Positions 5,624 to 25,935 of a stretch of DNA of 39,817 nucleotides are shown here, in pieces. Position numbers and translations under genes: made by a program. The stretch's first letter is position 1. Each line of letters starts with the position of its first letter. A model generated the notes under the pieces. That model did no database searches. It was given only the letters and a program-made list of their open reading frames with translations, and was not told the origin of the DNA. The DNA comes from Prevotella sp. Its GTDB lineage: Bacteria > Bacteroidota > Bacteroidia > Bacteroidales > Bacteroidaceae. The DNA lies in assembly GCA_017458125.1 (NCBI GenBank), contig JAFTGB010000071.1, positions 1 to 39,817 on the forward strand. Reading direction: 5' to 3'.

Positions 5624-5647
5624 GACGATTAGCACAGGGAAATGTCA
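5624..5647 (-). promoter_or_regulatory. ECF-type promoter candidate upstream of beta-helix 1
   Basis: On the minus strand TGACA (5647-5643) and CGTCTTTAA (from 5627) are separated by exactly 15 bases. The -35-like box is extended as GATGACATTT. The ATG is only ten bases after CGTC, so a transcript starting at the usual distance would be nearly leaderless. The same arrangement occurs upstream of four other genes in this window. That it is read by an ECF sigma factor is inferred from shape and spacing; no sigma factor gene lies in the window. Confidence 0.6.
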
Positions 5648-5700
5648 TCGAAGTCTTTTGACGTGTTAACAACTAAAGAAACTAATTAAAATACGTTAAG

Positions 5701-5746
5701 AACTAAAGGTGTTAGTTGTTAGTAACGAAAACTTTTAGTTACTTTG
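5701..5746 (+). promoter_or_regulatory. Promoter and two operator-like palindromes for the BlaI operon
   Basis: AACTAAAGGTGTTAGTT (5701-5717) is a perfect 6-5-6 inverted repeat. A second one spans 5721-5743, with arms AGTAACGAAAA and TTTTAGTTACT around a single C and one mismatch. A Bacteroidetes-type promoter fits across it: TTG at 5716-5718, a 20-base spacer, and TTACTTTG at 5739-5746 (one mismatch to TAnnTTTG). The second palindrome covers the spacer, as expected for autorepression by the BlaI-family protein encoded just downstream. Confidence 0.6.
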
Positions 5747-5804
5747 CATTCAGATATTGATAACAACGCATTTTGAACGCACAAACTTAAAGCAAACAAC
5801 GACA

Positions 5805-6170
5805 ATGAAAAAGCTGACGAATAAAGAAAAAGAGATTATGGAGCTGTATTGGCAGCACGGTCCGATGTTCGTTCGCGAACTGCAAGAGCACTATGCCGAA
5901 CCCCGCCCGCACTTCAACACCCTCTCGACGATGGTACGCATCCTGGAGCGGAACGGCTTCTTGGGGCACCGGCAGTTTGGCAACAGCTTCCAATACTATC
6001 CGTTGGTGACGGAGAAAGAGTACGGACGCTCATCGATAGCCGGAGTCATCAAGAACTATTTTAATGACTCCTATCTCTCGGCCGTCTCCTCGTTTGTCAA
6101 GGAGGAGAAAATCAGTATCGAGGAACTCCGTGAACTGATAGCCCAAATAGAGCAATCGGACCATGAATAG
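5805..6170 (+). CDS. BlaI/MecI/CopY-family transcriptional repressor
   Basis: A small winged-helix repressor of 121 residues, starting at MKKLTNKEKEIMELYW. The N-terminal half has the BlaI helix-turn-helix, including VRELQEHY, PHFNTLSTMVRILERNGFL and the wing HRQFGNSFQYYPLV. The C-terminal helices (SSFVKEEKISIEELRELIAQ) form the dimerisation part, which in the family is cut by a membrane metalloprotease. An in-frame ATG sixteen codons upstream is rejected because the family begins at the chosen Met and upstream sequence is promoter-like. It precedes an M56 sensor gene, the standard BlaI-BlaR pairing. Two palindromes in its promoter suggest autorepression. In Bacteroidetes such pairs are widespread and need not concern beta-lactams. 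Confidence 0.92.
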   Translation: MKKLTNKEKEIMELYWQHGPMFVRELQEHYAEPRPHFNTLSTMVRILERNGFLGHRQFGNSFQYYPLVTEKEYGRSSIAGVIKNYFNDSYLSAVSSFVKEEKISIEELRELIAQIEQSDHE

Positions 6171-6203
6171 TAAATCGAAAATCGCTAAATCGTAAATCGA
6201 AAA
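6171..6203 (+). repeat. TAAATCG/AAAATCG heptads filling the BlaI-BlaR1 gap
   Basis: Directly after the BlaI stop codon come TAAATCG, AAAATCGC, TAAATCG, TAAATCG and AAAATG, the last unit merging into the ATG of the next gene. The whole intergenic gap is therefore repeat. The same heptad family precedes the SSS symporter gene. Confidence 0.85.
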
Positions 6204-7762
6204 TGATGACAGACTTTCTGACTTACGATGCCAAAGTGGCTGTGCTGATACTGGCGTTTTATATCTGTTACCGCCTGCTGCTCGCCAAGGAGACGTTCCA
6301 CCGCGTGAACCGCCTGGTGCTATTGGGCACTGCTGTGCTCTCGTTCCTGTTGCCGCTGTGTGTCATCACAATGCACGAGACGGTGGTGGCTCCTCGTCCG
6401 GAGATTGCCATCGGCGAGGTGGGCATGGCCGTTGTCGATGAAGTGCAGGAGCCTTGGTGGCACTATGCCCTGCCCACCTTATTTATAATAGGTGTGGTCA
6501 CCACACTCGGCCATACCATCGTATCGCTGGTCAGAGTCATTCGTCTGATTCGAAAGAGTGAGCAGCATCCTTTGGACGACGGCACCGTCGTCTGCGTGAC
6601 AGACCGGCCGGTGTCGCCCTTCAGTTGGATGCACTATATCATGATGGACCGCGAGGATTATGAGGCTCACGATGCCGCCATCCTTGCCCACGAACGGGGA
6701 CACATCAGGCTCCATCATTCCTGGGACCTGCTCCTCGTTGATACCCTCACCGCCCTCCAATGGTTTAACCCCGCCATGTGGATGCTGCATCAGGACTTGC
6801 GCGCCATCCACGAATACGAGGCCGACGGTGCAGTACTCTCTCAGGGGTTCAATGCGCGTCAATATCAATACCTGTTAATCACGAAAGCCGCGAGCATTGG
6901 CGGGTACTCCATTGCGAACGGTATCTCCCACAGTACCCTCAAAAACCGTATTCGTATGATGATACATAAAGAAACCAAGCGCAGCCATCTTGTGAAGCTG
7001 CTGGCCCTGCTGCCCATCGTCGGCACCGCCCTTGCCCTGAATGCCGAGACCGTCACTGACTATCAGTATGATACGCCCCAAAAGAAACAAATCATCAAGA
7101 AGGGCAAACAGAATGCCAAGATCAGTGCCAACGGCGCGAATGAGATTGTAGTGATAGAGCAGGAAGTTCCTGCACAGCAACAGCAAATCAATCCAGTAGA
7201 AATGCCTAACGGCATGAAAGTGGGCAAAACTGTTAAGCCCTTCGATGTGGTGGAGCAGATGCCCCAGTTTCCAGGCGGGCCTGCAGCAATGATGCAGTTC
7301 CTCGCCCAGAACATCCGTTATCCTGAGACCGCTCATAAGGCTGGCATACAGGGACGTGTGATTGCCAACTTCGTCGTGGAGAAGGATGGCAGCATCACAG
7401 AGGCAAAGATCGTCAAGTCTGTATCGCCAGAGCTGGATGCCGAGGCCCTGCGTGTAGTCAGCGTCATGCCCCAGTGGATTCCCGGCAGGCAGAACGGTGA
7501 GGCCGTCCGTGTGAAGTACACTATACCTGTTACCTTCCAACTGCAAGGCAGCGAAAAGCCTGCCGTATCGCATGTAATGATTGGCCCGGAGCATAGGGGC
7601 AAGTCCAAACCTGTTGAGGTGGTGATTGACGGCCAGGTGGTGGATGCCATTGCGATGAGCAGCCTCAATCCTTCCGACATCGAGAGTATAGATGTCGAGA
7701 AGGCCAAGGACGGCCAGCCTAAGGACCGCATCATCATCAAGATGAAGCAGAAGAAAGAATAA
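6203..7762 (+). CDS. BlaR1-like M56 membrane metalloprotease with TonB C-terminal domain
   Basis: An inner-membrane sensor protease predicted to cut the BlaI repressor. Membrane helices lie near residues 10-25, 38-55 and 92-112. The M56 zinc motif HERGH is at residues 163-167, and the third ligand is probably in AIHEYEADGAVL near residue 205. Another membrane segment (LLALLPIVGTALAL) follows. A TonB C-terminal domain (PQFPGGPAAMMQFL to RVKYTIPVTFQLQ, about residues 355-450) is fused behind a Gln/Pro linker. The last ~65 residues (VEVVIDGQ...LNPSDIESIDVEKAKD) resemble the plug domain of TonB-dependent receptors. Either of two adjacent ATGs could be the start. It is co-transcribed with the repressor and the downstream TPR gene. 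The M56-TonB fusion is common in Bacteroidetes; its trigger is unknown. Confidence 0.88.
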   Translation: MMTDFLTYDAKVAVLILAFYICYRLLLAKETFHRVNRLVLLGTAVLSFLLPLCVITMHETVVAPRPEIAIGEVGMAVVDEVQEPWWHYALPTLFIIGVVTTLGHTIVSLVRVIRLIRKSEQHPLDDGTVVCVTDRPVSPFSWMHYIMMDREDYEAHDAAILAHERGHIRLHHSWDLLLVDTLTALQWFNPAMWMLHQDLRAIHEYEADGAVLSQGFNARQYQYLLITKAASIGGYSIANGISHSTLKNRIRMMIHKETKRSHLVKLLALLPIVGTALALNAETVTDYQYDTPQKKQIIKKGKQNAKISANGANEIVVIEQEVPAQQQQINPVEMPNGMKVGKTVKPFDVVEQMPQFPGGPAAMMQFLAQNIRYPETAHKAGIQGRVIANFVVEKDGSITEAKIVKSVSPELDAEALRVVSVMPQWIPGRQNGEAVRVKYTIPVTFQLQGSEKPAVSHVMIGPEHRGKSKPVEVVIDGQVVDAIAMSSLNPSDIESIDVEKAKDGQPKDRIIIKMKQKKE

Positions 7763-7782
7763 ACACACTCTCTCGTTTTAAT

Positions 7783-8958
7783 ATGAACAGATTATCACTC
7801 ATGTTCATCCTCGCCCTCTTAGCGGTTTCCGCCGCAAGGGGCGAGGCTCTTGACTCGCTGGCCCTGCTTGTGCAGCGGGGTGACAGCCTGATGCAGCAGT
7901 ACAATACCTTCGAGGCGTTGAAATACTATCAGCAGGCATATAATCAGGCACAGGCTCAAGGTATCACCCGTTTCTCGATGGATGCGGATTTCAGCATGTC
8001 GAAGCCTTACGTGCCAGAGGATTGCGTTCCCCGTCAGATCCGGCTGAAGTTGGCAGATTGTCAGTATAAGCGTGCTAATTATCGGGAGACCACGGAACTG
8101 CTGAAGAACATGTCCGAGGACAGTCTGACGCACGATGCCTTCCGACAGTTGGCCAACAGCTACAGACAGCAGGGCGACATGGACTCTTACATGTACTGGG
8201 CCGCCCGGCTTTTGGAGCGCTACCCGAAGGACGGCGAGGTGGTGGCTGGTCTCACGCTGGCCTATGCCAGGAGTAATCAGCCGCAGAAAGGCATTGTCTG
8301 TGCAATGATATACACATTGAAGGACTCAACCAACATCCTCGTCAATCGTGCTGCAGCCGAAGCCTGGCTGCTGAACGGCGACTATACGGCGGCAGCCAAA
8401 ATGTATGGTCGTTTGCTGCAGCAGGGAGACTCCGCTTTCAGCACCCTCTATTCCGCCGGTATGTGCTATAGCAGGATAGACTCGCTGGAACAGGCCTACC
8501 AGTGCTTGAAGACAGCCTTCTTCGCCAGCGGCATGCAACATGCCAATTGTGCCTGGCGTCTGGGCGTGGTCAGTATTGATACTAAGCGCTTCGCCGAAGG
8601 ACTGGAGTATCTCAACGTGGCTTTGGAACTGATGAAGCCCGACACCACAGCCATGCGAGCCATCACGCTGTCGCAAGGCGAGGGATACTACCTGACCGAA
8701 CACTACGCAGAGGCCGTAGCCTCATGGAAAGAGCATTTGGCATATAACCCTTCCTCTATTGCTACCTATTATAATATAGCCAGTGCCTACTATTACTTCT
8801 TTCCAGACGGTCAGGAGGCCAAGAAGTACTATGAGCAGTTCCTCGCCCTGGCCCGCAAGGAAGAAAAACCTACGCCACAATTGACGGAGATGATAGAAAA
8901 GGCCGAAACGCTACTGCGTACCACCCACTTCGGGCAACATAAAAGCAAACGGCATTAA
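7783..8958 (+). CDS. Periplasmic or lipid-associated TPR protein
   Basis: A 391-residue exported protein with a signal peptide (MNRLSLMFILALLAVSAARG) and repeated tetratricopeptide helices from about residue 25 to the end, for example NTFEALKYYQQAYNQAQ, DYTAAAKMYGRLLQQGD and PSSIATYYNIASAYYYFF. TPR arrays act as protein-protein scaffolds. It begins 20 bases after the M56 sensor stop codon and ends at a strong terminator, so it is the third gene of the BlaI operon. A TPR protein after an M56-TonB sensor is a recurrent Bacteroidetes arrangement, but I cannot name its partner. Nothing looks broken. Confidence 0.85.
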   Translation: MNRLSLMFILALLAVSAARGEALDSLALLVQRGDSLMQQYNTFEALKYYQQAYNQAQAQGITRFSMDADFSMSKPYVPEDCVPRQIRLKLADCQYKRANYRETTELLKNMSEDSLTHDAFRQLANSYRQQGDMDSYMYWAARLLERYPKDGEVVAGLTLAYARSNQPQKGIVCAMIYTLKDSTNILVNRAAAEAWLLNGDYTAAAKMYGRLLQQGDSAFSTLYSAGMCYSRIDSLEQAYQCLKTAFFASGMQHANCAWRLGVVSIDTKRFAEGLEYLNVALELMKPDTTAMRAITLSQGEGYYLTEHYAEAVASWKEHLAYNPSSIATYYNIASAYYYFFPDGQEAKKYYEQFLALARKEEKPTPQLTEMIEKAETLLRTTHFGQHKSKRH

Positions 8959-8964
8959 ACCTTT

Positions 8965-9006
8965 GTTAGTGATGTTCGTCTAATGATGAACATCACTAAC
9001 CTTTTT
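8965..9006 (+). terminator. Strong intrinsic terminator after the BlaI-M56-TPR operon
   Basis: A 16-bp stem (8965-8980 paired with 8985-9000, one G-U pair) closes on a TAAT loop and is followed by C and five T residues. It ends the operon seven bases after the TPR stop codon and separates it from the alcohol dehydrogenase. Confidence 0.9.
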
Positions 9007-9023
9007 AATGCATTAAAGAACCA

Positions 9024-10211: not shown

Positions 10212-10242
10212 AGACAAGCCCGGCTTAAAACGCCAATAACCA

Positions 10243-11955: not shown

Positions 11956-11983
11956 ATCAACAACTAATATAAGACACAAGACT

Positions 11984-12970: not shown

Positions 12971-12984
12971 GCGTCAGAGGGGGC

Positions 12985-13053: not shown

Positions 13054-13057
13054 CTGG

Positions 13058-15157
13058 TCAGCGCGCCAAAGGAAGCCAGAGCGACATGTCCTGAATGCCG
13101 CGGTTGTCCCAGGCGTAATAGGGTATGAGGCGTATGTGAGCGGTCTGCTGTCTGACGGGGCGCAGCTCGCGGTAGAGGTCGTCCTTACCCCAGAAGTCGC
13201 GGTTGACCACGGGCACATCGGCCTCTAAAGCCACCATCTGGTGGCCGGCAATGGTCACCGTTGTCTCCGTGAACTTGACGTCGGCGGGAATGGCAATGTC
13301 GTTGATGCGCGGCTTGTCGGTGGCAGAGGCGCCGGTGGCACTGATGTCCTCGCCCTCCAAACAGTAGACGATGGGGCCACGCATGACGGCCACTTGGTTC
13401 TTGGCCTCCTCGACCAGCGGGTTGGCCTCGATGAGCCGCGGCTTCATGGGCAGGATGAGTTCCACCTGGTCACCCTTCTTCCACTTGCGCGGTTGGCGCA
13501 GGTCTTCGGCCAGGATGTCCTTGCCGTTCAGCCGTAGCGTCATGCCGTCGGACCATCCGGGAATGTGCATGCGGATGCTGGCGAGCCGCTTGGCGCGCTT
13601 GACGGTCAGCGTGATGTGGCCGTCCCACGGGTAGCCGGTCTGCTGCTCTATCTCCACGTCCTTGGTCTTCAGCGTGTTCTGTCCGTACAGGTTGACCCAC
13701 AGCGTGTCGCCCTTGACGGAGTAGGCGTACTCCTGTGCCTGGCAGAGCGTGCGCAGCGTGTTGGGCGGGCAGCAGAAACAGGTGATGTAACGCTGGCGGT
13801 GCTTGGGCCAGCGCATGGTGTAGGGGAACTCGTTGGTGCGGCGCAGGGCCTCGGTGTAGAAAAAGTCGCGGCCGTCGAGCGAGATGCCTGAGAGGATGCC
13901 GTTATAGAGTTCGTTCTCGATGATGTCCACGTACTTGGGGTGCATGTCGGTCTGGTACATGCGCCACGAGAAGAGCAGCATGCCTATCTGGGCGCAAATC
14001 TCGTTGTGGGCGGCCTCTTGCGGCAGTTGGAACTGGCGGCCGTAGGCCTGGTGTATCTGCTGAATGTAGGGCTGGTTGTAGGTGGTGCCGTCCGGCGACA
14101 CGCCGTCGTAGAGTGCTCCGCAGCCGCCCATGATGTAGATTTTGTGGTTGACGATGTCGTCCCAGATGGCTTCGAGGTTTCGCTTCAGCTGTTCCTCGCC
14201 GGTCTCGGCATAAAGGTCGGCGACGCCGGCGTAGAGGTAGTTGGCGCGCACGGCATGCCCCATGGCCTCATACTGGTCGCGGAACTTCAGGCGGTCCTGA
14301 TTGTGGTCCTCGCCGTTGGTCACGCTGTCACGTATGGCTATAAGGCCTTCAGTCAGGCGCAGGTACTTCTGGTCACCCGTCTCGCGGTACATTTCGGCTG
14401 CGCCCATGTAGTGACTCGGACAGATGGCGTTGCGCGACAGCTCGGCGGCGTCGTTGGTCAGGAAGTTGTAGAGGAAGTCGGCGGCCTTCCGGCCACAGTC
14501 GAACAAGGTGGTCTTGCCCGTGGCGCGCTTGTGCACGATGCCTGCCGTCATGAGGTGTCCCAGGTTGTAGGTCTCGAAGTTCAGGCGCGAAGCAAAGGCG
14601 TGCTTCTGGTCTTTGCCTATCTCGATGCCCGCAGCATTGTCTGTACCGGCATGGCTGTCAATACCCTGGTTGCGCTCCGAAATGACCACCGGCGTGTGGA
14701 TGTAGCCGTCGGCACGCTGAGCCAGCGCCACCTGTTCGATGAAGCGGTCCATCAGCGCGTCTAACTTCGGGTCTTTGGTGACGGCATAGACTGCGGCACA
14801 GGCTTCCAACCACTTATACATGTCGCCGTCGTGGAAGGGAGGACCGTGGTGCTTGCCCTTGACGGTGCCTGCAGCCGCCTGGAAGTTGGCAAAGCCGTGC
14901 GAGCCGTGCTGTCCGAGGGCGTCGATGGTCTCGTAGGGCGTGTTCCACGTTTCCCACATCGACCAAATGCCCGTGGTAGAGAGCACGTTGAAGCGCTCGC
15001 CCCAGAAGCCTCCCGTCCATTGGGTGGCTCCGAGCGGCAGATTCTGCATCAGTGCTTGTTTGCTGTGGCTCATGTCGGTGAGGCCCTGAGCCGTGGCCGT
15101 CCTGACGGTTGCTGTCATAGAGCAACAGGCGAGACAAAGGATGAGTAGTTTTTTCAT
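13058..15157 (-). CDS. Secreted GH127-type beta-L-arabinofuranosidase
   Basis: A retaining glycosidase predicted to remove beta-L-arabinofuranose or a similar sugar from plant glycans. It has a signal peptide (MKKLLILCLACCSMTATVRTATA), an (alpha/alpha)6 barrel, and C-terminal beta-sandwiches. The zinc-thiolate active site of the family is visible: E and C in NEICAQIG near residue 388, and the cysteine pair in ITCFCCPPNTLRTL at about residues 460-463, where one Cys is the nucleophile and the others bind zinc. Its 699 residues fit the family. GH127 also contains 3-C-carboxy-5-deoxy-L-xylose-acting members, so the exact sugar is open. The ATG lies 13 bases after a TGACA-N15-CGTC promoter motif, so it is transcribed on its own and shares control with the beta-helix and methyltransferase genes. 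Confidence 0.9.
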   Translation of the reverse strand: MKKLLILCLACCSMTATVRTATAQGLTDMSHSKQALMQNLPLGATQWTGGFWGERFNVLSTTGIWSMWETWNTPYETIDALGQHGSHGFANFQAAAGTVKGKHHGPPFHDGDMYKWLEACAAVYAVTKDPKLDALMDRFIEQVALAQRADGYIHTPVVISERNQGIDSHAGTDNAAGIEIGKDQKHAFASRLNFETYNLGHLMTAGIVHKRATGKTTLFDCGRKAADFLYNFLTNDAAELSRNAICPSHYMGAAEMYRETGDQKYLRLTEGLIAIRDSVTNGEDHNQDRLKFRDQYEAMGHAVRANYLYAGVADLYAETGEEQLKRNLEAIWDDIVNHKIYIMGGCGALYDGVSPDGTTYNQPYIQQIHQAYGRQFQLPQEAAHNEICAQIGMLLFSWRMYQTDMHPKYVDIIENELYNGILSGISLDGRDFFYTEALRRTNEFPYTMRWPKHRQRYITCFCCPPNTLRTLCQAQEYAYSVKGDTLWVNLYGQNTLKTKDVEIEQQTGYPWDGHITLTVKRAKRLASIRMHIPGWSDGMTLRLNGKDILAEDLRQPRKWKKGDQVELILPMKPRLIEANPLVEEAKNQVAVMRGPIVYCLEGEDISATGASATDKPRINDIAIPADVKFTETTVTIAGHQMVALEADVPVVNRDFWGKDDLYRELRPVRQQTAHIRLIPYYAWDNRGIQDMSLWLPLAR

Positions 15158-15170
15158 AGTTTATAGTTTA

Positions 15171-15194
15171 GACGTGCGGCAGGGGCTTTTGTCA
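15171..15194 (-). promoter_or_regulatory. ECF-type promoter candidate upstream of GH127
   Basis: On the minus strand TGACA (15194-15190), a 15-base spacer and CGTCTAAAC (from 15174) lie in the 50-base gap between yraN and GH127. TGACA is followed by AAA here, as at the MtaA-like gene; the other three sites have TTT. The start codon is 13 bases past CGTC. Confidence 0.6.
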
Positions 15195-15564: not shown

Positions 15565-15573
15565 GGCCGTCGC

Positions 15574-17157: not shown

Positions 17158-17167
17158 ATTACTTATT

Positions 17168-17204: not shown

Positions 17205-17251
17205 TTCATAGTTAAGTAACCGTTAAAAAATAAATTGGTATGATTTAGACT

Positions 17252-17336: not shown

Positions 17337-17373
17337 CATAAATAATTTCGTCCCAAGTTATTTTTTATCATTA

Positions 17374-19758
17374 CTAAAAGGTGATGCCTTTATATTCCTT
17401 GGTAATCTCGATGGTGACGGCACGGCTCAGGTCCATGTCGTCGGTAGAGTCTACATCGTCAGGATAAAGGGCAATGTGGGCACCGGGGCGCACGAATACC
17501 GGCATGTGGTCGAGCGGCACCTCTACATCATAGTACCAGCGGCCGCCCTGCAGACGCTCGCCCGTGAAGAAGTTGACCCACTCGGCCCCCTCGGGCAGAT
17601 AGATGTCGCGACGGCCCTCGCTGTTCATCACAGGACAGACCAGAAACTCGGAGCCGAAGTAGTATTCGTCGTCGATGTGCCACACCTGGCGGTCGTACGG
17701 GTGGTGCATCAGGAGGGCACGCACCATGGGGTAGCCGGTACGGCAGGAGCGTTCGGCCTGCTCGACGATGTAGGGCAGCAGTTTGTAGCGCAGCTTCCAC
17801 CAGCGCTTCACGATGGGAGCAATGTCGGGGTAGTGCCACGGCTCGCGCTTGCTGGTGCCGTGGTAGCGGATATGCGAGGAGAAGACGCCGAACTGCGTCC
17901 AGCGCACGTAGACGTCGTCGGCCACGGGACTGTTCATGAAGTCGGGAGTGGAGTGGAAGCCTGGCACGTCATGGCTCCAGAAGGCGAAACCGCTCAGACC
18001 GAAATGCAGCCCGCCTTTCAGCGAACCGGCCATGCCTGCCCACGACGACTCGGAGTCGCCGCCCCAGTGCAATGGATAGCGCTGACAGCCGGCCCAGGCC
18101 GCGCGTGCCCATACGATGCCGTCGCCCGTCACTGCCTTGGTGACTTCGTAGGCGGCGCGCTGGTAGAGCAGGGCGTAGAGGTTGTTCAGCCGCTCGGGTG
18201 TCATGCCATGGTACTGGTGGTCCATGTGGATGTTCTCGCCGAAATCGGTCTTGATGCATTTGACACCCATCTCCAACAGCGGACGCAGCAGTTGGTTCTT
18301 GTACCATTCAGTGGCTTTGGGGTAGGTGAAGTCGATGGTACCGGCATAGTCGAGGGCCGAGAAGTTCGAGGAAGCCCCTGAAGCCCCACTGTTGTCCCCC
18401 GAGGGGGACATATTATTCACAGCTTCATCAGGTTCTAAGCCTCCCCTCGGGGAGGTTTGGAGGGGGCTTGCTTGACTGATATACCTGTTGGCTTTTGCCT
18501 CTTCCAATTGTTCTGCCCCTTGAGCCACATAGGGCAACTGCCACAGGGAAACCTTGAAACCGTTGTCTTTAAGATGCTGGACGAAAGCCTTGGGGTCAGG
18601 AAAGCGCTCGGGGTTGAACTTCCACTCACAAAGCCAGTCGGTGCGGAACCAGCCCGTGTCAAGGTGGATGACGTCGCAGGGGTAATGTTCGCGGCGAAGA
18701 CGGTCGCAAATCTCGTTCACCTCGTCAGCAGAGAAGTAGGTCATGCGGCTCATCCAGATGCCGAACGACCACAGCGGCGGCATCTGCGGGAAACCTGTCA
18801 GCATGCGATAGCCGCGCAGAATCTGCTCGGGAGTCTTGCCTCCGATGAGAAAGACGTCTAACGTGGCATGGTCGTTGAGGAACTGTACTGAGCGTGTGGA
18901 GTGGTCGGCGAGCGACAGTTTGCAGTAGTCGCTGGTATGGAAGAAAGCACCATACATGCGGCTCGACAGGTAGAACGGGATGTTCTTGTAGCAGCGGCGG
19001 TTATTGACGCCCTGGCCGTCCTGGTTCTTCAGTTGGAAGGTCTGGCCGCTGAGGTCCATCTTGCGGAAGCGCTCGCCCGTGCCTACGAAGCACTCGTCAG
19101 ACTCGCACTTGAAGCTGATGGTGGCGCGTTCGGTCTTGGTGGCCGGGGCATTGCCTCGGCTTACCGAACAGAAGCCCAAGGGTAGCGCATCGTAGCGGGG
19201 CGGCGAGAAATGGTCGTCGCTCAAGGCTATGCCCTTCGTCTCGTCGCCATCGGGATAGAAGGTGATGAAGGGCGCAGGCTGCGGTGCAGGCAGCAGGTCG
19301 CTCCAGTGGTCCAGTTTGGGTTCGCTGAGGTCGATAGCCCCCACCAAACCTCCCCGAGGGGAGGCTTTACTGATTACTACGATTCCGCCATTGTCCTTTA
19401 TAGAAAGAGGTATGCGCTTTACCTCTGGCGCAAACAGCAGCATGTCGTCCTGCTCGGTCATCTCGTCACCGCTCATGGTGGTGAACAGGCGCAGGATGTT
19501 GGGCTCGTAGGCGCGGATAATGAGGTCGTAGCTCTGCTGTGCTGCTGTGGTGTCAGGCGCCATGTCCTCCTGATGCAGTTGCTTTTGATAGGGAATGGTG
19601 ACTATGATGTCGCCGTCATGCTCCTGTATGTTGGTAGGTGCGTATGCCTTCCAGAGAGCTTCATCCTTCTGTAGTGAAGGGTCGTTCGTAACGCCACACC
19701 CTGACTTGAAGTCAGAGAAGTCCATGAAGTCAAATAGGTGGTAGTTGGTTAGTTTCAT
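17374..19758 (-). CDS. GH31 alpha-xylosidase-like glycosidase with several repeat insertions
   Basis: A retaining alpha-glycosidase, most like YicI-type alpha-xylosidases that remove xylose from xyloglucan fragments. The nucleophile Asp is in CIKTDFGENI and the acid/base Asp in HWGGDSESSW; the W-x-F-x-W region of the family appears as QMPPLWSFGIWMSRMTYF. No signal peptide is visible, so the enzyme may be cytosolic, as for YicI. Its 794 residues exceed the family norm because repeat DNA is read through. SDFKSGCGVTNDPSL near residues 14-28 is a CTGAC-palindrome unit. KASPRGGLVGA near 130-140 and QASPLQTSPRGGLEP near 427-455 are CTCCCC palindromes. It overlaps the beta-helix 2 stop by four bases and shares that gene's promoter. 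Confidence 0.88.
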   Translation of the reverse strand: MKLTNYHLFDFMDFSDFKSGCGVTNDPSLQKDEALWKAYAPTNIQEHDGDIIVTIPYQKQLHQEDMAPDTTAAQQSYDLIIRAYEPNILRLFTTMSGDEMTEQDDMLLFAPEVKRIPLSIKDNGGIVVISKASPRGGLVGAIDLSEPKLDHWSDLLPAPQPAPFITFYPDGDETKGIALSDDHFSPPRYDALPLGFCSVSRGNAPATKTERATISFKCESDECFVGTGERFRKMDLSGQTFQLKNQDGQGVNNRRCYKNIPFYLSSRMYGAFFHTSDYCKLSLADHSTRSVQFLNDHATLDVFLIGGKTPEQILRGYRMLTGFPQMPPLWSFGIWMSRMTYFSADEVNEICDRLRREHYPCDVIHLDTGWFRTDWLCEWKFNPERFPDPKAFVQHLKDNGFKVSLWQLPYVAQGAEQLEEAKANRYISQASPLQTSPRGGLEPDEAVNNMSPSGDNSGASGASSNFSALDYAGTIDFTYPKATEWYKNQLLRPLLEMGVKCIKTDFGENIHMDHQYHGMTPERLNNLYALLYQRAAYEVTKAVTGDGIVWARAAWAGCQRYPLHWGGDSESSWAGMAGSLKGGLHFGLSGFAFWSHDVPGFHSTPDFMNSPVADDVYVRWTQFGVFSSHIRYHGTSKREPWHYPDIAPIVKRWWKLRYKLLPYIVEQAERSCRTGYPMVRALLMHHPYDRQVWHIDDEYYFGSEFLVCPVMNSEGRRDIYLPEGAEWVNFFTGERLQGGRWYYDVEVPLDHMPVFVRPGAHIALYPDDVDSTDDMDLSRAVTIEITKEYKGITF
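18397..18475. repeat. CCTCCCC..GGGGAGG palindromes read through inside GH31
   Basis: On the plus strand TCCCCCGAGGGGGA is followed, after 26 bases, by CCTCCCCTCGGGGAGG and TTTGGAGGGGGCT. In the sense frame the second reads S-P-L-Q-T-S-P-R-G-G-L. This Gly/Ser/Pro/Asn-rich stretch has no counterpart in ordinary GH31 enzymes and falls between two conserved segments of the barrel. Confidence 0.85.
19338..19375. repeat. Second CTCCCC palindrome in GH31, opposite orientation
   Basis: CCCCCACCAAACCTCCCCGA followed by GGGGAGGCTTT is the reverse orientation of the element at 18440-18472. Because the core is palindromic, the sense frame again reads S-P-R-G-G-L. It lies in the N-terminal beta-sandwich. 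Confidence 0.83.
19683..19724 (-). repeat. CTGAC palindrome + GTGTGGCGTT unit at the GH31 N-terminus
   Basis: The sense strand reads TTCTCTGACTTCAAGTCAGG followed by GTGTGGCGTTACG. It aligns with the GH78 unit TTCTCTGACCGTTGGTCAGA-GTGTGGCGTTGC, but the stem differs on both sides (CTGACC/GGTCAG against CTGACTT/AAGTCAG). Pairing is kept. Confidence 0.78.
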
Positions 19759-21296
19759 TGTTTGAATATAAGGTTGGGACCGGGATGGTTGTCGCCTATC
19801 TCGTCGCGACGAATAAGTCGGCCTTCCGTGGTGTTATTCTCGATGGTAAATCCGTCGGTATGCGCATCCAGATAGATGCAGAAACCGCGGTTGTTGGTGG
19901 CGTAGGGGGCAGGGTAGGGCTGACTGATGTCGTTGCCCGTGATGACGGAACCGGGCTGGTTCGAGAGCGTATAGATGCCACCGGCATCGTAGAGCTGACG
20001 GGCATAGCCTTTGACACTGTTGCCGATGATGCGGTTGTTCTTCATGCCCGTGTCGAGCGGTGTCCATCCCCAACCGACGCAGATGCCCGAATAGTTGACG
20101 CGGTTCACGTAGTTGTTGCTGATGGTGCAGTCGCGTACATAGCCCAAGCCAATGGCTACGGCTCCCCAGTCCTCAGTGGCGGCATCGACGATGACGTTCC
20201 TCTCGATGGTCAGCCGCTGGCAGCGACTGGCCAGGTCGGTGTAGGGACGGTGAACCTCGCGAGGGCTTTCGGCAAAGGAGCCGCCCATGATGGCCGTGCC
20301 GCCAATGTTGCCAAAGGTGCAGCCCTGCACACGGCAGTCGCTGATGTTGTCGACAAAGTCGAGGGCCGTGGCGGCCAGACCTTCAAACACTACCCTGTCG
20401 AAGGTTACATGGTGGGCGTTGCGAACAGTGACGGCACTGACGGGGCGTTCCACCCATGCCTGGTTCTCCAGTCCGCTGTCCCACGGCAGTCCGGGCTTCT
20501 CTTTTAGTTTATAAGCATCCACGAGCGGGAATCCGCCTTGCAGCGTGACGTGTCCTTTGTGCAGGGGACGGTTCCAACAGGTGCGTGCGAAGGTGATGTT
20601 GTCGAACGTTACATAGTTTGCACCGTCGATGATGGCCAGCTGTTCGATGCCGTCGCGCTGTTCGGTGGTGCGCAGCAGGAATGACGAGTTACCGCGCTCA
20701 CCCCCAATGACGGGCTGAGGCCAGGGGTGCTCGAACTCCAGGCGGCTCTCCGGCTCCATGAAGCTGACAACGGTCTTGGCGCCCTGCACCTTCATCTCCT
20801 TGACGCGCAGGATGGCGATGGCCCACCGTTGGTGGACTACCATTTCAAGAGGTGAGAGGTGAGAGGTAAGAGGTGAGAGGTGTGGTTTCAGCGAATCGAG
20901 TACGTTCTTCGGTGGGGTGGGAATGGTGATAGTGCGGTCGGTGGTGTTAAAGGCTATCAAGCGCTCCATACCCTCCGTAGGCCACACCTGCGTATGCTTT
21001 TGACGGGCGTCGCCGCAGATGTAGCTCTTGTGGTTCTCTCCAATGCCGCGGATGATGAGAGGCGACTCCTTGGTGCCGCTGTCCTCGGGGCGCAGGAACA
21101 GCGGTTCCTGCATGTAGTATCGTCCTGCTTCGATGGTGATGGTGATGCCGCCTTTGCAGCGTGCATCGTTGGTGCGTCGCCATTCGCGGGCCTGCCTTAA
21201 AGCGTTGTGGATGCTTTCTCCCTCGTGGACGACAATCTCGGCGGCATGTGCCAGCGTGACGGTGAAGAAGAGTAGTGCGGTGAATACATGTTTCAT
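19755..21296 (-). CDS. Secreted parallel beta-helix glycosidase, paralogue of the 3838-5613 protein
   Basis: A 513-residue exported protein with a signal peptide (MKHVFTALLFFTVTLAHA). It shares a run of motifs with beta-helix 1: AGRYYMQEPLFLRPEDSG, LEFEHPWPQPV, GHVTLQGGFPLVDAYKL, EDWGAVAIGLGYVRDCTI, YSGICVGWGWTPLDTGMKNN and YDAGGIYTLSNQPGSVITGN. It is therefore the same GH141-like type and probably acts on a related plant side chain. The C-terminus is about 25 residues shorter than in the paralogue. A CACCTCT heptad insert (HLSPLTSHLSPL, about residues 138-150) sits at the position where beta-helix 1 has its NSKSV repeats. It is the first gene of an operon with GH31 and carries the TGACA-N15-CGTC motif, divergent from the MtaA-like gene. 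Confidence 0.72.
   Translation of the reverse strand: MKHVFTALLFFTVTLAHAAEIVVHEGESIHNALRQAREWRRTNDARCKGGITITIEAGRYYMQEPLFLRPEDSGTKESPLIIRGIGENHKSYICGDARQKHTQVWPTEGMERLIAFNTTDRTITIPTPPKNVLDSLKPHLSPLTSHLSPLEMVVHQRWAIAILRVKEMKVQGAKTVVSFMEPESRLEFEHPWPQPVIGGERGNSSFLLRTTEQRDGIEQLAIIDGANYVTFDNITFARTCWNRPLHKGHVTLQGGFPLVDAYKLKEKPGLPWDSGLENQAWVERPVSAVTVRNAHHVTFDRVVFEGLAATALDFVDNISDCRVQGCTFGNIGGTAIMGGSFAESPREVHRPYTDLASRCQRLTIERNVIVDAATEDWGAVAIGLGYVRDCTISNNYVNRVNYSGICVGWGWTPLDTGMKNNRIIGNSVKGYARQLYDAGGIYTLSNQPGSVITGNDISQPYPAPYATNNRGFCIYLDAHTDGFTIENNTTEGRLIRRDEIGDNHPGPNLIFKQ
20848..20882 (-). repeat. Five in-frame CACCTCT heptads in beta-helix 2
   Basis: Five units of CACCTCT (one reads TACCTCT) are translated as H-L-S-P-L-T-S repeats. 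Three heptads make 21 bases, so all three frames are read in turn, and none contains a stop codon. Confidence 0.9.
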
Positions 21297-21306
21297 ATAC
21301 TATTAA

Positions 21307-21330
21307 GACGCTGACAGCAATGAAATGTCA
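21307..21330 (-). promoter_or_regulatory. ECF-type promoter candidate upstream of beta-helix 2 / GH31
   Basis: On the minus strand TGACA (21330-21326), 15 bases, then CGTCTTAAT (from 21310). The start codon follows ten bases after CGTC, the same distance as at beta-helix 1, again implying an almost leaderless mRNA. Confidence 0.6.
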
Positions 21331-21343
21331 TCAATGGACGTGG

Positions 21344-21367
21344 TGACAAAAAGCCCGACTTCCCGTC
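21344..21367 (+). promoter_or_regulatory. ECF-type promoter candidate upstream of the MtaA-like gene
   Basis: TGACA (21344-21348), 15 bases, then CGTCTTAGA (from 21364). It lies back to back with the beta-helix 2 site in the same 94-base intergenic region. The chosen start codon is 23 bases past CGTC, behind an A-rich leader. Confidence 0.6.
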
Positions 21368-21390
21368 TTAGAATAAACAAAAAGAAACCG

Positions 21391-22398
21391 ATGAAGATGA
21401 ATATGCGACAGTGGATGGCTGATGTCATCAGGCTGCGGGAGGTGACAGCACTGCCTGTGATGACGCATCCGGGCATAGAGCAGAACGGCCATACCGTGCG
21501 GCAGGCAGTCAGCGACGGCAGGGTGCACTATGAGGCTGTGATGACGCTGACACGGCGTTACCCGAGTGTTGCGGCAGCGACGATAATGGATCTCACCACC
21601 GAGGCTGAGGCTTTTGGTGCCGAAGTGGCCTTCAGCGATGATGCCGTTCCGGCTGTCAGCAGCAGGCTGTTGCCAGATGTGGAAAGCATTTACAGCCTGC
21701 AGGTGCCGTCGCTCAGGGCCGGCCGCATACCGCAATACCTGAAAGCCAACCTGCTGGCGGCCAAGGCCGTCACCGACCGTCCGCTGCTGGCGGGATGTAT
21801 TGGACCGTTCTCGCTGGCCGGCCGATTGTATGACATGTCGGACATCATGGTGCTGATTTACGAACATCCCGAGGCAGCCCACACGCTGTTGCAGAAGTGT
21901 ACCGACTTCATCGAGAAATACTGCCAGGCACTGAAGCTGACTGGTGCCAACGGTGTGATGATGGCGGAGCCTGCCGCAGGCCTGATGTCGAACGACGACT
22001 GCCTGACTTTCTCGTCGCAGTATGTCAAGCGAATCATAGATAGTGTGCAGGATGACACGTTTGCCGTTGTCTTGCATAACTGCGGTAATACGGGGCATTG
22101 CACCAAAGCCATGGTGGCCACGGGTGCTGCTGCCTACCATTTTGGCAACAAATGTCAGATGGAGGAGGTCATCAGGGATGTTCCGCCTACGGCTTTGGCC
22201 ATGGGAAACATCGACCCGGTGTCGGTGTTCAAGGACGGTACGCCAGACATGATGCGCCAGACCGTTCTCGACTTGTTGGAAAGAATGGCTACTTACCCTA
22301 ACTTTGTGCTGAGCAGTGGTTGCGACACTCCTCCGCAAACTCCTATGGCAAACATAGACGCTTTCTTCGAGGCTTTGGCAGACTACAACAAACAGTGA
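21391..22398 (+). CDS. MtaA/CmuA-type (uroporphyrinogen decarboxylase fold) methyltransferase
   Basis: A 335-residue protein of the UroD superfamily, in the branch that moves methyl groups to or from corrinoid proteins. The zinc motif of MtaA-like enzymes is visible: H229-x-C231 in VVLHNCGNTGHC and C311 in LSSGCDTPPQTPMANI, a normal 79-residue separation. Other signatures are GCIGPFSLAGRLYDMSDIM and NGVMMAEPAAGLMS. Such enzymes activate a thiol acceptor or accept a methyl group from methyl-cobalamin. An in-frame upstream ATG is rejected because it lies in the promoter region; MKMNMRQWMADVIRL fits the family. The stop overlaps the GTG of the B12-reactivation gene, and the pair faces the methyltransferase fusion gene. 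A TGACA-N15-CGTC motif lies upstream. Confidence 0.85.
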   Translation: MKMNMRQWMADVIRLREVTALPVMTHPGIEQNGHTVRQAVSDGRVHYEAVMTLTRRYPSVAAATIMDLTTEAEAFGAEVAFSDDAVPAVSSRLLPDVESIYSLQVPSLRAGRIPQYLKANLLAAKAVTDRPLLAGCIGPFSLAGRLYDMSDIMVLIYEHPEAAHTLLQKCTDFIEKYCQALKLTGANGVMMAEPAAGLMSNDDCLTFSSQYVKRIIDSVQDDTFAVVLHNCGNTGHCTKAMVATGAAAYHFGNKCQMEEVIRDVPPTALAMGNIDPVSVFKDGTPDMMRQTVLDLLERMATYPNFVLSSGCDTPPQTPMANIDAFFEALADYNKQ

Positions 22399-23048
22399 CG
22401 GAGAAGACGCTGACATACGAAGACTTGCAGATATCGCTTGCCGACGTCTATGAGCAGATGGGCTATCGCGATGCCGAACCTGATAAGGCGACGCAGCGTG
22501 AGACGCTGGGTGTCATCGGTGAGGTGCAGGGGTGGCTTCGTCCGCGTTTCTGCTATCAGGTGGTCAGACTGCAGCCTGATTTCGACATGGGACGCATCAT
22601 CCTGCGACAGTTGCATGGTGCGGATGCCTATGTGCTCTTCATCTGTACCAGTGGTATGGAGTTTGAAGCTTATCAGCAGCGACTGAAAGACGCTGGCGAT
22701 ATGGTGCGTATCTTCATTGCCGACGCTTTGGGCTCCGTGATAGCAGAGAAGACTGCCGACCGCATGGAGGAACATTTGCAGGAGAGTATCGACAAACTGG
22801 GCTGGCAGCATACCAACCGCTTCTCGCCAGGCTACTGCGGGTGGCATGTGTCGCAGCAACAGTTGCTTTTTCCTCTATTCAACGGTAATACATGCGGTGT
22901 ACGCTTGACAGATTCTTCACTCATGGTACCCATCAAGAGTGTTAGCGGCATTATCGGTGTAGGCGAAAAAGTCCGCAGGCTCGACTATACCTGCGGACTC
23001 TGCGATTTTCAACAATGCTACAAGCGGAAGCTAAAGCCTGCCAAGTAG
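22395..23048 (+). CDS. Stand-alone methionine synthase activation-domain protein (cobalamin reactivation)
   Basis: A 217-residue protein matching the C-terminal AdoMet-binding activation domain of MetH, encoded separately. The AdoMet site RFSPGYCGWHVSQQQLLFPLF, the SSLMVPIKSVSGIIGVGEKV segment and the C-terminal TCGLCDFQQCYKR are all present. Its expected job is reductive methylation of inactive cob(II)alamin on a partner corrinoid protein. The start is taken as GTG, in frame and overlapping the upstream TGA as GTGA; the upstream ATG lies inside the MtaA-like gene and adds unrelated residues. The 3' end overlaps the convergent methyltransferase fusion by 18 bases. The likely partner is that fusion, which has a corrinoid domain but lacks an activation domain. 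Confidence 0.88.
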   Translation: MTEKTLTYEDLQISLADVYEQMGYRDAEPDKATQRETLGVIGEVQGWLRPRFCYQVVRLQPDFDMGRIILRQLHGADAYVLFICTSGMEFEAYQQRLKDAGDMVRIFIADALGSVIAEKTADRMEEHLQESIDKLGWQHTNRFSPGYCGWHVSQQQLLFPLFNGNTCGVRLTDSSLMVPIKSVSGIIGVGEKVRRLDYTCGLCDFQQCYKRKLKPAK

Positions 23049-25883
23049 TTGCTTGGCTACGGTAACAGCCGAGTTGGCATTGTCAGAGTAGCCGTCGGCA
23101 CCTATCTCGTCGGCAAAACCTTGCGAGACGGGTGCGCCGCCCACCATCACCTTCACCTGGTCGCGGATGCCAGCAGCCTGAAGGGCGTCTATCACCTCCT
23201 TCATATACCCCATTGTGGTGGTAAGCAGAGCCGACATGGCCAGGATGTCGGGGCGGTTCTTCTTGATTTCCTCGACGAAGGTGTCGGCAGACACATCGAT
23301 GCCGATGTTGACTACCTCAAAGCCACAGCCCTCCAGCATGGAAGCCACCAGATTCTTGCCGATGTCGTGCAGGTCACCCTTGACGGTGCCTATGAGCACC
23401 TTGCCTAACGAGGTGACTTGCTGACCGGCCATCAATGGTTTCAATACCTCCAGACCGGCCTTCATGGCGCGACCGGCCATCAGCAGCTGGGGCACGAAGG
23501 CTTTGCCGTTCTGAAAGCGCTGACCTACCTCGCCCATGGCGCGAATCATCTCGTTATTGATGATGTCTTGGGGCTGTTGACCCGCCTCTAAGGCCTGATG
23601 GGTGGCTGTGGCGCAGTCGTCGCTTTTCCCAGCAACAATGGCTTCGAAGACGGAGTGTTGAGTGTTGAGTGTTGGGTGTTGAGTGTTGAGTGTTGGGTGT
23701 TGAGTGTTGAGTGTTGGGTGTTGAGTGTTAACCTCTAACTTCTCACCATTAACCTCTAAAGCAGACAGGCGCAGGCCGGGGACAGGCTCTAAGGCTTGGG
23801 CTATGAGATTAATGTGTCGGTCAGTAGTACCGCAGCATCCTCCGACGATACTGAGATGGTGCCCCTGTAAGAGTGGCCACAGGTCGGCGACAAGACTTTC
23901 GGGAGTCTTGGAGTAACGGCCTTGTCCGTCAGGCATGCCGGCATTTGGGTAGAGGCTGACATTCGTACCAAAGCGAGCCAGCTTCTGAACCAGCAGTGTC
24001 ATGGCTTTGATGTCGGCTATGCAGTTGATGCCGATAGAGAAAGGCACAAAGTCAAGACTTGCAACGAAATCCAGGATGTTCTGCCCCAGCATGTTGTGCC
24101 CGTCAGGCGTTGAAACGCTGAAACTGAGCATCAATGGTAGTTCGGGGGCAGTGTCTTTGGCACACGCCATGGCTATGCGGGCATTCTCTACATCGAAGAC
24201 GGTCTCCACTAACAAGGCGTCTACGCCACCTTCCTTCAGTGCTTGAATCTGTTCGGTATATGCTGTGCACAGTGTCTCCGTGTCTAATGGTTCTCCACTG
24301 GTGTCCATGCTTGTGGTACGGTTAGTGGGACCGATGCTGCCAACGACAAAGCGGGGATGTGCTGCCGTACTGAACTCATTGGCACACTGTCGGGCCAGCC
24401 GGGCGGCAGCAAGATTGATGTCACGGCAGTAGTCCTGCAGACCATAGTCGTTCATGGATATGCGCTGGGCATTGAAGGTGTTGGTCTCGATAATGTCAGC
24501 ACCGGCAGCGAGGTACTTGCGATGAATGTCACTGATGACGAAGGGGGCCGTTAGAGACAGCACGTCGTTGCATCCTTTCAGGTCGGTGGGGTGGTTGGCA
24601 AAGCGGGCTCCTCGGAAGGCTTCTTCATTCAGCTGATACTGTTGTATCATAGTGCCCATAGCACCGTCGAGGACCAGCATGCCCGTCTTCAGCCTCGTTT
24701 CTAAGGAGGGACGCTCTATGGTGTCAATGATGTGTTGCACCTCACGGTCGGCTTCATCGTCGGAGGGAACATGGATGACGGGTGCCGTCATGTTGTTCTT
24801 TACACTTGAAACAGCACTATTCTGGTATTCCTCTACGATGCGCATAGCCTGTTCTACCTCTCGTTCGTTGTGGAAGTCCATCTCAATGTGTACGCCGTCG
24901 CCGCCGATATTGTCCAATAGCGGCCGCAGTTCGTCAAGGGTCACCCAACAGGCCATGATGCTCTTTCCGTGCGAAAGGATTTTCTTATAGAGGTCGTACC
25001 ACTTGGGACTGCCGCCTTGCGGCTCACCCACGCCGGGTGTCCACTGGATGGCATTCAGCTCGTCTATTTCCAAAAGGGCATCCAAGTGGTGCATGGCTCC
25101 GACACCGTCCAAATGGTAGAGGGTGTAGTCTATCTTCTGGCACTGCTCGCGTATGAAGGGTTGTACGAAGCGGCGGTAGTCGTCCTGACTGATCATTGTT
25201 GATATGTCGCTCTGCAACTTCGACATCTTGCCTGGTGCCCATGAGGAGAAGTAGCAGAAAGCCATCTCGTCGCCCTCGCGGATGATGTCGTACAGTTCGT
25301 CGAACACCTGAAAGTAGATGTCGTTGATTTGTTGCATCTGCTGCTCCAGCACCTCAGGCTGCATGACGGTGTCGAGTAGCACCTGGTCAGTACCTTTAAG
25401 GGCTGCCAGCACGTCCAAACCCTCCATCAGGTCGGGCATTCCTACGTAGTAGTGGCCTTGCGCCTTGCGCTTGCAGGCCTTCAGCAGCTCCTTGTGCAGC
25501 AGCCAGTTGGGATGGTTAGGGTCAAACTTGATGTCGTCGGTATAGTTGGGGTCGGGGTGAATCCAGATGGTGTCCTCGCCGCCTTCAAAGACACCACCTA
25601 AGATGGCTGCCAATGAACCAGGACCCAACTGGGTGTTGGCAACGGGCAACATGTCGGCCATGAGTGACGAGTGGGCCACATACCAGTCCAGATAGTCGGC
25701 TCTCCACTCTGGGTCGAACCACCGTTGGTTCAAATCACGATAGGGCTTTGGTGCTGGAATGTCGGCGTGTGGTTTGACACCGTCCTGAAAGTGTTCCCAC
25801 ATGTTGAGCACTATGCCTTTGTGGTTCCACCAGTTGATGTATCGCTGCTTGGTTTCTTCGAGATTAGCTTTCCAAGTATTCAT
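23031..25883 (-). CDS. Three-domain fusion: UroD-like methyltransferase, homocysteine S-methyltransferase, B12-binding domain
   Basis: A 950-residue cytosolic protein. Residues ~1-360 are UroD-like (WEHFQDGVKP, LPVANTQLGPGSLAAILGG, YHLDGVGAMHHLDALLEI, WTPGVGEPQGG), without the H-x-C zinc motif. Residues ~385-700 are a MetH-type homocysteine methyltransferase (LKTGMLVLDGAMGTMIQQ; zinc ligands C621 in GINC and C683-C684 in GGCCGT). Residues ~745-950 are the MetH cap and cobalamin domain (GDLHDIG with H839 as the cobalt ligand). Compared with MetH it lacks the folate domain and the activation domain, and has an N-terminal UroD domain instead. Inferred role: moving a methyl group from an unknown donor, via cobalamin, to homocysteine. 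A heptad-repeat linker (NTQHPTL x3-4) joins the last two domains. It has its own TGACA-N15-CGTC promoter, and an AGGAG lies near the ATG. Confidence 0.87.
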   Translation of the reverse strand: MNTWKANLEETKQRYINWWNHKGIVLNMWEHFQDGVKPHADIPAPKPYRDLNQRWFDPEWRADYLDWYVAHSSLMADMLPVANTQLGPGSLAAILGGVFEGGEDTIWIHPDPNYTDDIKFDPNHPNWLLHKELLKACKRKAQGHYYVGMPDLMEGLDVLAALKGTDQVLLDTVMQPEVLEQQMQQINDIYFQVFDELYDIIREGDEMAFCYFSSWAPGKMSKLQSDISTMISQDDYRRFVQPFIREQCQKIDYTLYHLDGVGAMHHLDALLEIDELNAIQWTPGVGEPQGGSPKWYDLYKKILSHGKSIMACWVTLDELRPLLDNIGGDGVHIEMDFHNEREVEQAMRIVEEYQNSAVSSVKNNMTAPVIHVPSDDEADREVQHIIDTIERPSLETRLKTGMLVLDGAMGTMIQQYQLNEEAFRGARFANHPTDLKGCNDVLSLTAPFVISDIHRKYLAAGADIIETNTFNAQRISMNDYGLQDYCRDINLAAARLARQCANEFSTAAHPRFVVGSIGPTNRTTSMDTSGEPLDTETLCTAYTEQIQALKEGGVDALLVETVFDVENARIAMACAKDTAPELPLMLSFSVSTPDGHNMLGQNILDFVASLDFVPFSIGINCIADIKAMTLLVQKLARFGTNVSLYPNAGMPDGQGRYSKTPESLVADLWPLLQGHHLSIVGGCCGTTDRHINLIAQALEPVPGLRLSALEVNGEKLEVNTQHPTLNTQHPTLNTQHPTLNTQHSVFEAIVAGKSDDCATATHQALEAGQQPQDIINNEMIRAMGEVGQRFQNGKAFVPQLLMAGRAMKAGLEVLKPLMAGQQVTSLGKVLIGTVKGDLHDIGKNLVASMLEGCGFEVVNIGIDVSADTFVEEIKKNRPDILAMSALLTTTMGYMKEVIDALQAAGIRDQVKVMVGGAPVSQGFADEIGADGYSDNANSAVTVAKQLLGRL
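23653..23729 (-). repeat. Eleven in-frame AACACTC/AACACCC heptads (interdomain linker)
   Basis: Eleven perfect 7-base units, with AACACCC at every third position, give a 21-base higher-order repeat translated as N-T-Q-H-P-T-L. It lies exactly between the homocysteine-methyltransferase domain and the cobalamin cap. The high identity between units suggests recent expansion. Confidence 0.93.
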
Positions 25884-25911
25884 TGTATGCTCCTATTATA
25901 TATAAGGTAAA

Positions 25912-25935
25912 GACGCTGTTGCCAACTAAATGTCA
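25912..25935 (-). promoter_or_regulatory. ECF-type promoter candidate upstream of the methyltransferase fusion
   Basis: On the minus strand TGACA (25935-25931), 15 bases, then CGTCTTTAC (from 25915), with the GATGACATTT extension seen at both beta-helix genes. It occupies the 58-base gap after hemW. The leader is about 20 bases and holds an AGGAG-like ribosome-binding site. Confidence 0.6.

Follow-up and report, generated by a model that had tools for sequence, protein, structure and literature searches.

The window analysed here, i.e., the entire 39,817-nucleotide contig JAFTGB010000071.1 of a Prevotella sp. genome (GenBank assembly GCA_017458125.1), carries five copies of a promoter-like motif that are probably read by an extracytoplasmic function (ECF) sigma factor encoded on another contig of the same genome. 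Each copy consists of TGACA and CGTC separated by 15 bases, and precedes a gene for either a glycoside hydrolase (GH) family protein or a protein of corrinoid-dependent methyl transfer:

5620–5647, minus strand: site 1, TGACATTT-N12-CGTCTTTA, 10 bases ahead of the first GH141 start
15167–15194, minus strand: site 2, TGACAAAA-N12-CGTCTAAA, 13 bases ahead of the GH127 start
21303–21330, minus strand: site 3, TGACATTT-N12-CGTCTTAA, 10 bases ahead of the second GH141 start, divergent from site 4
21344–21371, plus strand: site 4, TGACAAAA-N12-CGTCTTAG, 23 bases ahead of the methyltransferase start, divergent from site 3
25908–25935, minus strand: site 5, TGACATTT-N12-CGTCTTTA, 28 bases ahead of the fusion start

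The genes behind these sites, partly arranged in presumed operons, are the following (Pfam matches in brackets):

3838–5613, minus strand: GH141-type beta-helix protein, first copy, first gene of presumed operon 1 (GH141_M, 7.9e-61; Beta_helix)
1611–3830, minus strand: GH78-type alpha-L-rhamnosidase, second gene of operon 1 (Bac_rhamnosid6H, among others)
158–1597, minus strand: M20-family peptidase, third gene of operon 1 (Peptidase_M20, 6.6e-12)
13058–15157, minus strand: GH127-type beta-L-arabinofuranosidase family protein (GH127 catalytic domain, 9.3e-100)
19755–21296, minus strand: GH141-type beta-helix protein, second copy (GH141_M, 1.6e-31)
17374–19758, minus strand: GH31 glycosidase, second gene of presumed operon 3 (GH31, 3.1e-87)
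21391–22398, plus strand: MtaA-like corrinoid methyltransferase of the UroD superfamily (URO-D, 6.9e-57)
22395–23048, plus strand: stand-alone Met_synt_B12 activation-domain protein, second gene of presumed operon 4 (Met_synt_B12, 4.1e-14)
23031–25883, minus strand: 950-residue fusion of an unmatched N-terminal stretch of 400 residues, a homocysteine S-methyltransferase and two B12-binding domains (all by Pfam)

The sites had been picked out in a first-pass annotation of the window, and their positions and strands proved correct. The window holds exactly five TGACA-N15-CGTC matches, whereas 100 dinucleotide shuffles gave 0.38 on average and never reached five; a chance expectation of about 0.3 had been given at the time. 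The distance between CGTC and the start codon, put at 10–28 bases, was re-measured as 10, 13, 10, 23 and 28 bases, with every site oriented toward its gene, and the extended consensus TGACAWWW-N12-CGTCTWWR (hereafter the long form) was matched with 0 mismatches at each of the five sites. No long shared sequence was visible among them by eye. A two-element layout with fixed spacing and a CGTC-type –10 element is that of ECF promoters; two short elements, a fixed spacing, a CGTC-type –10 and orientation toward a gene are all present here, marking the five sites as candidate ECF-type promoters. The ordinary Bacteroidetes pair TTTG/TAnnTTTG did not occur in the 250 bases before the five genes, where a lone TAnnTTTG was found 176 bases before the first GH141 gene; the pair was also absent before seven other genes of the window, so this comparison is uninformative. 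Since the TGACA-N15-CGTC pattern was defined post hoc, from the window sites themselves, independent tests were required.

One such test concerned the upstream regions of orthologous genes. For this, 45 loci were fetched by means of the methyltransferase protein, regardless of the motif, and 120 upstream bases were scanned for either the strict core (i.e., TGACA-N15-CGTC) or a core with a loosened –35 element; ortholog rows with a query start above 25, identity below 45%, short coverage, scant upstream DNA or duplicate upstream sequences were left out. The core was present upstream of the second GH141 gene in 15 of 15 regions (all strict), of the methyltransferase gene in 19 of 43 (13 strict), of the fusion gene in 11 of 25 (10 strict) and of the GH127 gene in 2 of 9 (1 strict), compared to none of the 27 upstream regions of neighbouring genes at the same loci (0/15 for an SSF transporter gene and 0/12 for the GH31 gene, which is second in its operon). 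When 170 bases were scanned before the methyltransferase gene, the core was found in 18 of 44 regions (12 strict), and a control stretch within the gene had it in none of 44. In the 25 fusion regions of the 120-base scan, all 11 copies were on the coding strand of the fusion gene and none on the opposite strand. Prevotella sp. tf2-5 (L297) is one of the relatives with divergent GH141 and methyltransferase sites. Genes of the first GH141 type had a site upstream in seven of nine cases, in a locus set that was partly chosen by the motif. Across the ortholog sites CGTC was located 8–57 bases before the start codon, and in 45 sites the bases that had not been used in selection conformed to the first-pass consensus, the three positions behind TGACA being W in 45, 44 and 40 cases, and the one behind CGTC being T in 36. 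The expectation that the motif is kept upstream of orthologues thus held in full for the second GH141 gene and in part for the methyltransferase genes, at loci chosen blind to the motif.

The window is contig 50 of the 86 contigs of its 3.37 Mb source genome, of which it makes up 1.2%. Genome-wide, the nine-base core was not enriched (35 sites versus 30 for the reversed control), and 22 of the 25 core matches outside the window that were viewed in context lay inside open frames of at least 100 residues (5 of the 35 gave no locus). The exact long form was clustered, with 6 sites in the genome versus 1 for the reversed control and 5 of the 6 within the window. Its two-mismatch version was not enriched in the genome (41 versus 54 control sites); one such copy, at G000:C34:32680-32707 (locus L051), is located a short way ahead of another ECF gene. 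When the –35 element was relaxed (DDACAW...CGTCTWWR), 8 genome sites were found versus 6 for the control, i.e., without a clear numerical excess, and all 8 sites lay just upstream of genes fitting the regulon. Among these, a copy on contig C55 precedes an operon for a xylose-isomerase-like protein, a DUF4992 protein and a TonB receptor, and a copy on contig C62 precedes the gene for a 1427-residue protein with a Pfam domain named for BT_1020, so that the motif sites of this genome are spread over four contigs. The sole exact long form outside the window (C65:32077-32104) is situated between an 84-residue open reading frame (ORF) and the following gene:

G000:C65:31484-32044: ECF sigma factor gene, 187 residues (Pfam Sigma70_r2, 3.1e-8; Sigma70_r4_2, 3.6e-13)

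With sigma-70 regions 2 and 4 only and about 190 residues, the predicted protein has the make-up of an ECF (group 4) sigma factor; moreover, it matches the NCBIfam sigma70-ECF model above the cut-off, and its matches among PDB sequences are mostly ECF sigma factors. The motif copy has its CGTC 20 bases before the 84-residue ORF, directly behind the sigma gene. An ECF gene with the motif upstream had been sought, and such a gene was indeed found, but with the motif behind it, before the 84-residue ORF, rather than upstream. In a related locus (L233) the ECF gene is divergent, yet the site still lies ahead of the 84-residue gene. Close relatives of the C65 ECF protein occur in motif-bearing genomes and, of 20 distant relatives (42–73% identity), 13 had a loosened site within 150 bases behind the gene. 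As for the genes that may follow such relatives, four relatives at 52–60% identity directly precede GH67 (L331) or DUF5703 genes (L327 and L332, by Pfam; L330 by near-identity to L327), with no site between them. Relatives at 42–48% identity (L316–L324) are followed by an ORF of 40–49 residues that by eye resembles the C-terminal part of the 84-residue protein, with TTACA or GTACA as –35 variants.

The 84-residue ORF had 41 matches in 40 of the 398 genomes of the genus, 33 of which contained a match at E ≤ 1e-19. Thirty of the 41 matches gave loci, 29 with upstream DNA and one cut by a contig end, and [TG][TGA]ACA-N15-CGTC was present upstream in 29 of 29 (25 with TGACA and 4 with TTACA). Of the spacings from 12 to 19 that were tested, 15 alone occurred, and much of the spacer itself was poorly conserved. 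The gene and the motif co-occurred, with the motif in 28 of the 33 genomes strongly matching the ORF versus 38 of the other 365 (p ~6e-20, kinship among genomes being ignored), while the reversed control had no link to the gene (2/33 versus 25/365). The protein itself is too short to combine a FecR periplasmic domain with a membrane segment, and the FecR domain PF04773 was not found in its own genome, compared to 27 of 60 relatives that have some; a FecR identity was not adopted, the profile matches being confined to weak ones at the N-terminus, which might reflect a sigma-binding domain like that of FecR. Most likely, the 84-residue protein is a regulator of the sigma factor, presumably a soluble one, that would either inhibit or assist it.

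Across the 398 genomes of the genus, the long form was found at 126 sites in 66 genomes, versus 27 sites for the reversed control (hand count), and among the 60 relatives its matches were confined to the genus of the window (7 genomes, own included). Surroundings were fetched for most of the 126 sites, and the 120 with distinct context were annotated: at 101 of these an ORF start lay within 60 bases (by mechanical assignment), while several of the remaining 19 were inside long frames and resembled chance matches. When the 120 sites were grouped by the gene behind them, one representative per target group being named by Pfam (except for the 84-residue ORF), GH141 was the commonest (32 sites in 26 genomes), followed by the MtaA-like methyltransferase (14), the 84-residue ORF (9), a DHDPS-family aldolase (7) and a xylose-isomerase-like protein (5). 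Three sites each preceded the homocysteine-B12 fusion, GH127, an iron alcohol dehydrogenase, GH2 and a secreted protein for which Pfam gave repeat domains only or no match; pectate lyase, the name we had presumed for the latter group by eye, was rejected since Pfam did not confirm it. Two sites preceded TonB receptors, and one each a pectinesterase, a GH95 protein, an aldo-keto reductase and a BT_1020-like protein. Two further groups (of three and two sites) and several single sites were inside unrelated genes and were counted as chance background. The enrichment for which a genome scan had been proposed in the first-pass annotation is seen with the exact long form, genus-wide and ahead of the expected genes, but not with the core alone in the own genome.

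Three lines of evidence, i.e., the sites before orthologues, the linkage to the ECF operon and the co-occurrence, support the ECF promoter reading proposed in the first-pass annotation. We consider it likely that the five sites are promoters of the C65 ECF sigma factor, and that its regulon joins enzymes of the type that degrade rhamnogalacturonan II (RG-II) with a corrinoid methyl module. The sigma factor would bind at all five sites and thereby confer promoter activity on them, with TGAC(A) as the –35 element, CGTCT as the –10 element and 15 bases between. It would also drive the 84-residue gene behind its own gene, forming a feedback loop. The regulon would turn on the two GH141 proteins, the GH78, GH127 and GH31 enzymes, the BT_1020-like enzyme, and the operon of the isomerase and the TonB receptor, and the same sigma factor would co-activate the MtaA-like methyltransferase, the B12 activation-domain protein and the homocysteine methyltransferase-B12 fusion.

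A number of observations weigh against this. No site was found before 24 of the 43 methyltransferase genes, 14 of the 25 fusion genes and 7 of the 9 GH127 genes, so that the methyl module is probably only partly in the regulon. Seven of the 20 distant ECF relatives had no site behind the gene, one of them being the divergent case and four having a large GH67 or DUF5703 ORF close behind. The co-occurrence statistic ignores relatedness among the genomes, and 11 genomes with at least two sites have no strong match to the 84-residue protein. Likewise, eight genomes with GH141 or methyltransferase sites lack a strong match (five of them being among those 11), and their nearest ECF protein is only 42–46% identical and followed by an ORF of 40–46 residues with TTACA-N15-CGTC; these eight belong to the 13 distant relatives that have a loosened site behind the gene. 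The 84-residue protein matches no anti-sigma family (none in Pfam, none among PDB sequences below E 0.2 and none in NCBIfam over the cut-off), and when a profile of 28 members was compared with 30 FecR proteins, it gave weak N-terminal hits to two of them (E 0.009 and 0.018) and worse scores for the others. In the own genome, the other seven sites (looser form) are on contigs other than that of the sigma gene. Finally, sigma genes have three more core matches in or close to them, i.e., one that falls in a coding frame ahead of such a gene on C54, and two antisense ones at or inside two related sigma genes on C34 and C72, all of which look like chance.

The motif might instead be an operator bound by a conventional activator or repressor, with the operon of the ECF and 84-residue genes merely one of its targets. 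This would fit with the spread of the sites over four contigs, and with the fact that the link between ECF and motif rests on the 84-residue gene being a target, with binding by the sigma factor presumed. However, the motif is not palindromic, occurs with a single spacing, keeps to the strand of the fusion gene wherever it precedes it, and lies a short distance before the start codon, in a layout that is established for ECF promoters; the lack of a TTTG/TAnnTTTG pair before the five genes carries little weight given its lack before the seven others. We regard an operator as unlikely.

It is more improbable still that another sigma factor reads the motif and that the C65 operon is merely a target of it. 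The genome does contain 19 genes with sigma-70 region 2, and similar –10 elements are known to be often common to ECF sigma factors. Nevertheless, pattern searches throughout the genome found the exact long form adjoining a sigma gene at C65 alone, and it is the C65 ECF protein that has close relatives in motif-bearing genomes; the direct scan of the 19 sigma loci was incomplete, the antisense frame having been taken at several. That a nine-base pattern clustered by chance, or that the sites are copies of a repeated element, can be dismissed as scarcely credible: the core and the two-mismatch forms are indeed not enriched, but upstream regions of orthologues keep the motif while much of the spacer changes, the long form clearly exceeds its reversed control genus-wide, and the five sites share no long sequence by eye.

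Returning to the regulon of the C65 sigma factor, the families found under the motif, i.e., GH141, GH78, GH127 and a BT_1020-like protein, with GH95 and a pectinesterase added in relatives, resemble an RG-II set, and RG-II may be its substrate. BT1001–BT1003 and BT1020 have roles in RG-II breakdown, BT_1020 being an RG-II enzyme. RG-II carries 2-O-methyl xylose, and pectin yields methanol. The RG-II enzymes of Bacteroides thetaiotaomicron are described in passages of PMC12282258, where GH141 appears among the fucosidases and 2-O-methyl fucose is given as part of RG-II. The RG-II loci of B. thetaiotaomicron likewise feature GH141, GH78, GH127 and the BT_1020-like enzyme, whereas the genes are split here over several loci that an ECF-type promoter would unify. 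The GH78 gene also contains tandem repeats of seven-base units (AGTGAAG type), at its 5′ end (3733–3829) and inside it (3115–3143); since seven is not a multiple of three, length changes in these repeats could shift the frame.

In the methyl module, alignment of the MtaA-like methyltransferase with MtaA (PDB 4ay7) revealed a His-Cys-Cys zinc site (HNC ... GCD), the residues of which (H229, C231 and C311) are invariant in 17 orthologues. The protein matched the NCBIfam MtaA/CmuA model at 2.8e-35, under that model's own cut-off and also under the curated MtaA and MtbA cut-offs; as a UroD family member whose zinc-site residues are His-x-Cys plus Cys, it is nonetheless predicted to be an MtaA-like enzyme. 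Methyltransferases of the UroD superfamily with His-Cys-Cys are termed S-methyltransferases in parts of PMC10418091, in the main text of which the words Prevotella and pectin do not occur. The UroD-superfamily protein and the His-Cys-Cys zinc site are shared with the type 1 mlp clusters and the soluble CoM methyltransferases (MtaA, MtbA). In contrast to type 1 mlp clusters, which contain two or three UroD-family proteins, this genome has one, accompanied by a Met_synt_B12 protein and a homocysteine methyltransferase-B12 fusion, and presumably co-regulated with glycosidases. A scan confined to 26 proteins of the window turned up no activase.

The fusion had been labelled UroD-Hcy-B12, of which the UroD part had been assigned by eye and found no support in sequence: its residues 1–400 had no match in Pfam, NCBIfam or PDB sequences, and scored 0.2% against a profile of the other methyltransferase (both profiles being shallow), although a distant relation to UroD may exist. 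Like MetH, the fusion unites a homocysteine S-methyltransferase with B12-binding domains in one protein, but unlike MetH it has no pterin-binding (folate) domain according to Pfam, carries 400 residues of no matched family in front, and has the activation domain on a separate gene. A MetH with a pterin domain is encoded elsewhere in the genome, on C61; a methyl donor other than folate is therefore plausible for the fusion, but unproven. Methyl groups released from RG-II may then end up on homocysteine. A 21-base tandem repeat (23653–23729) encodes the linker that joins the homocysteine methyltransferase part to the B12 domains, and orthologues of the fusion vary in overall alignment length.

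Elsewhere in the window, a BsuBI/PstI-type restriction endonuclease gene adjoins that of a C5 cytosine methylase (37296–39325, minus strand), likely a type II restriction-modification pair. A BlaR1-type M56 peptidase joined to a TonB C-terminal domain in one protein is encoded at 6203–7762 (plus strand), followed by a TPR protein, and large ORFs without Pfam match (544, 781 and 184 residues) lie beside a DUF5675 protein at 29924–34960 (minus strand), with an IrrE-like protein further on.

The proposed governance of glycan-degrading genes in a Bacteroidales bacterium by an ECF sigma factor recalls the ECF/anti-sigma pairs at the polysaccharide utilization loci of Bacteroides. In B. thetaiotaomicron, 26 sigma/anti-sigma systems are tied to sugar utilisation genes, with an anti-sigma factor that spans the membrane and interacts with a SusC-like porin, as passages of PMC3878776 set out. 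The candidate partner here differs in having 84 residues and no FecR domain, the sigma gene and the genes of the window are on different contigs, and the presumed targets comprise enzymes acting on plant pectin as well as methyltransferases. A class I anti-sigma domain was found near only 6% of Bacteroidetes ECF genes according to a section of PMC7406223. A Bacteroidota ECF sigma factor with an unusual adjacent regulator is also portrayed in part of PMC13088901, although the Dma proteins of that system span from the cytosol to the outer membrane and the controlled functions differ. No description of the present motif or regulon was found in the portions of the open-access literature that were consulted.

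As a tentative model, the sigma factor and its small soluble partner might sense a signal inside the cell and direct RG-II dismantling along with recovery of the methyl groups of RG-II; in that case the fusion might serve as a second methionine synthase that receives its methyl group via the N-terminal domain, from a methylated plant sugar or methanol and not from folate. The analysis supplies one ECF sigma factor with candidates for its promoter, its regulon and a small partner, each of which would be testable in a cultured relative. Methanol from rumen pectin feeds methanogens, as stated in part of PMC10530356; by joining pectin enzymes to corrinoid methyl transfer, the proposed regulon may offer an answer to the fate of some of the methyl groups of rumen pectin.

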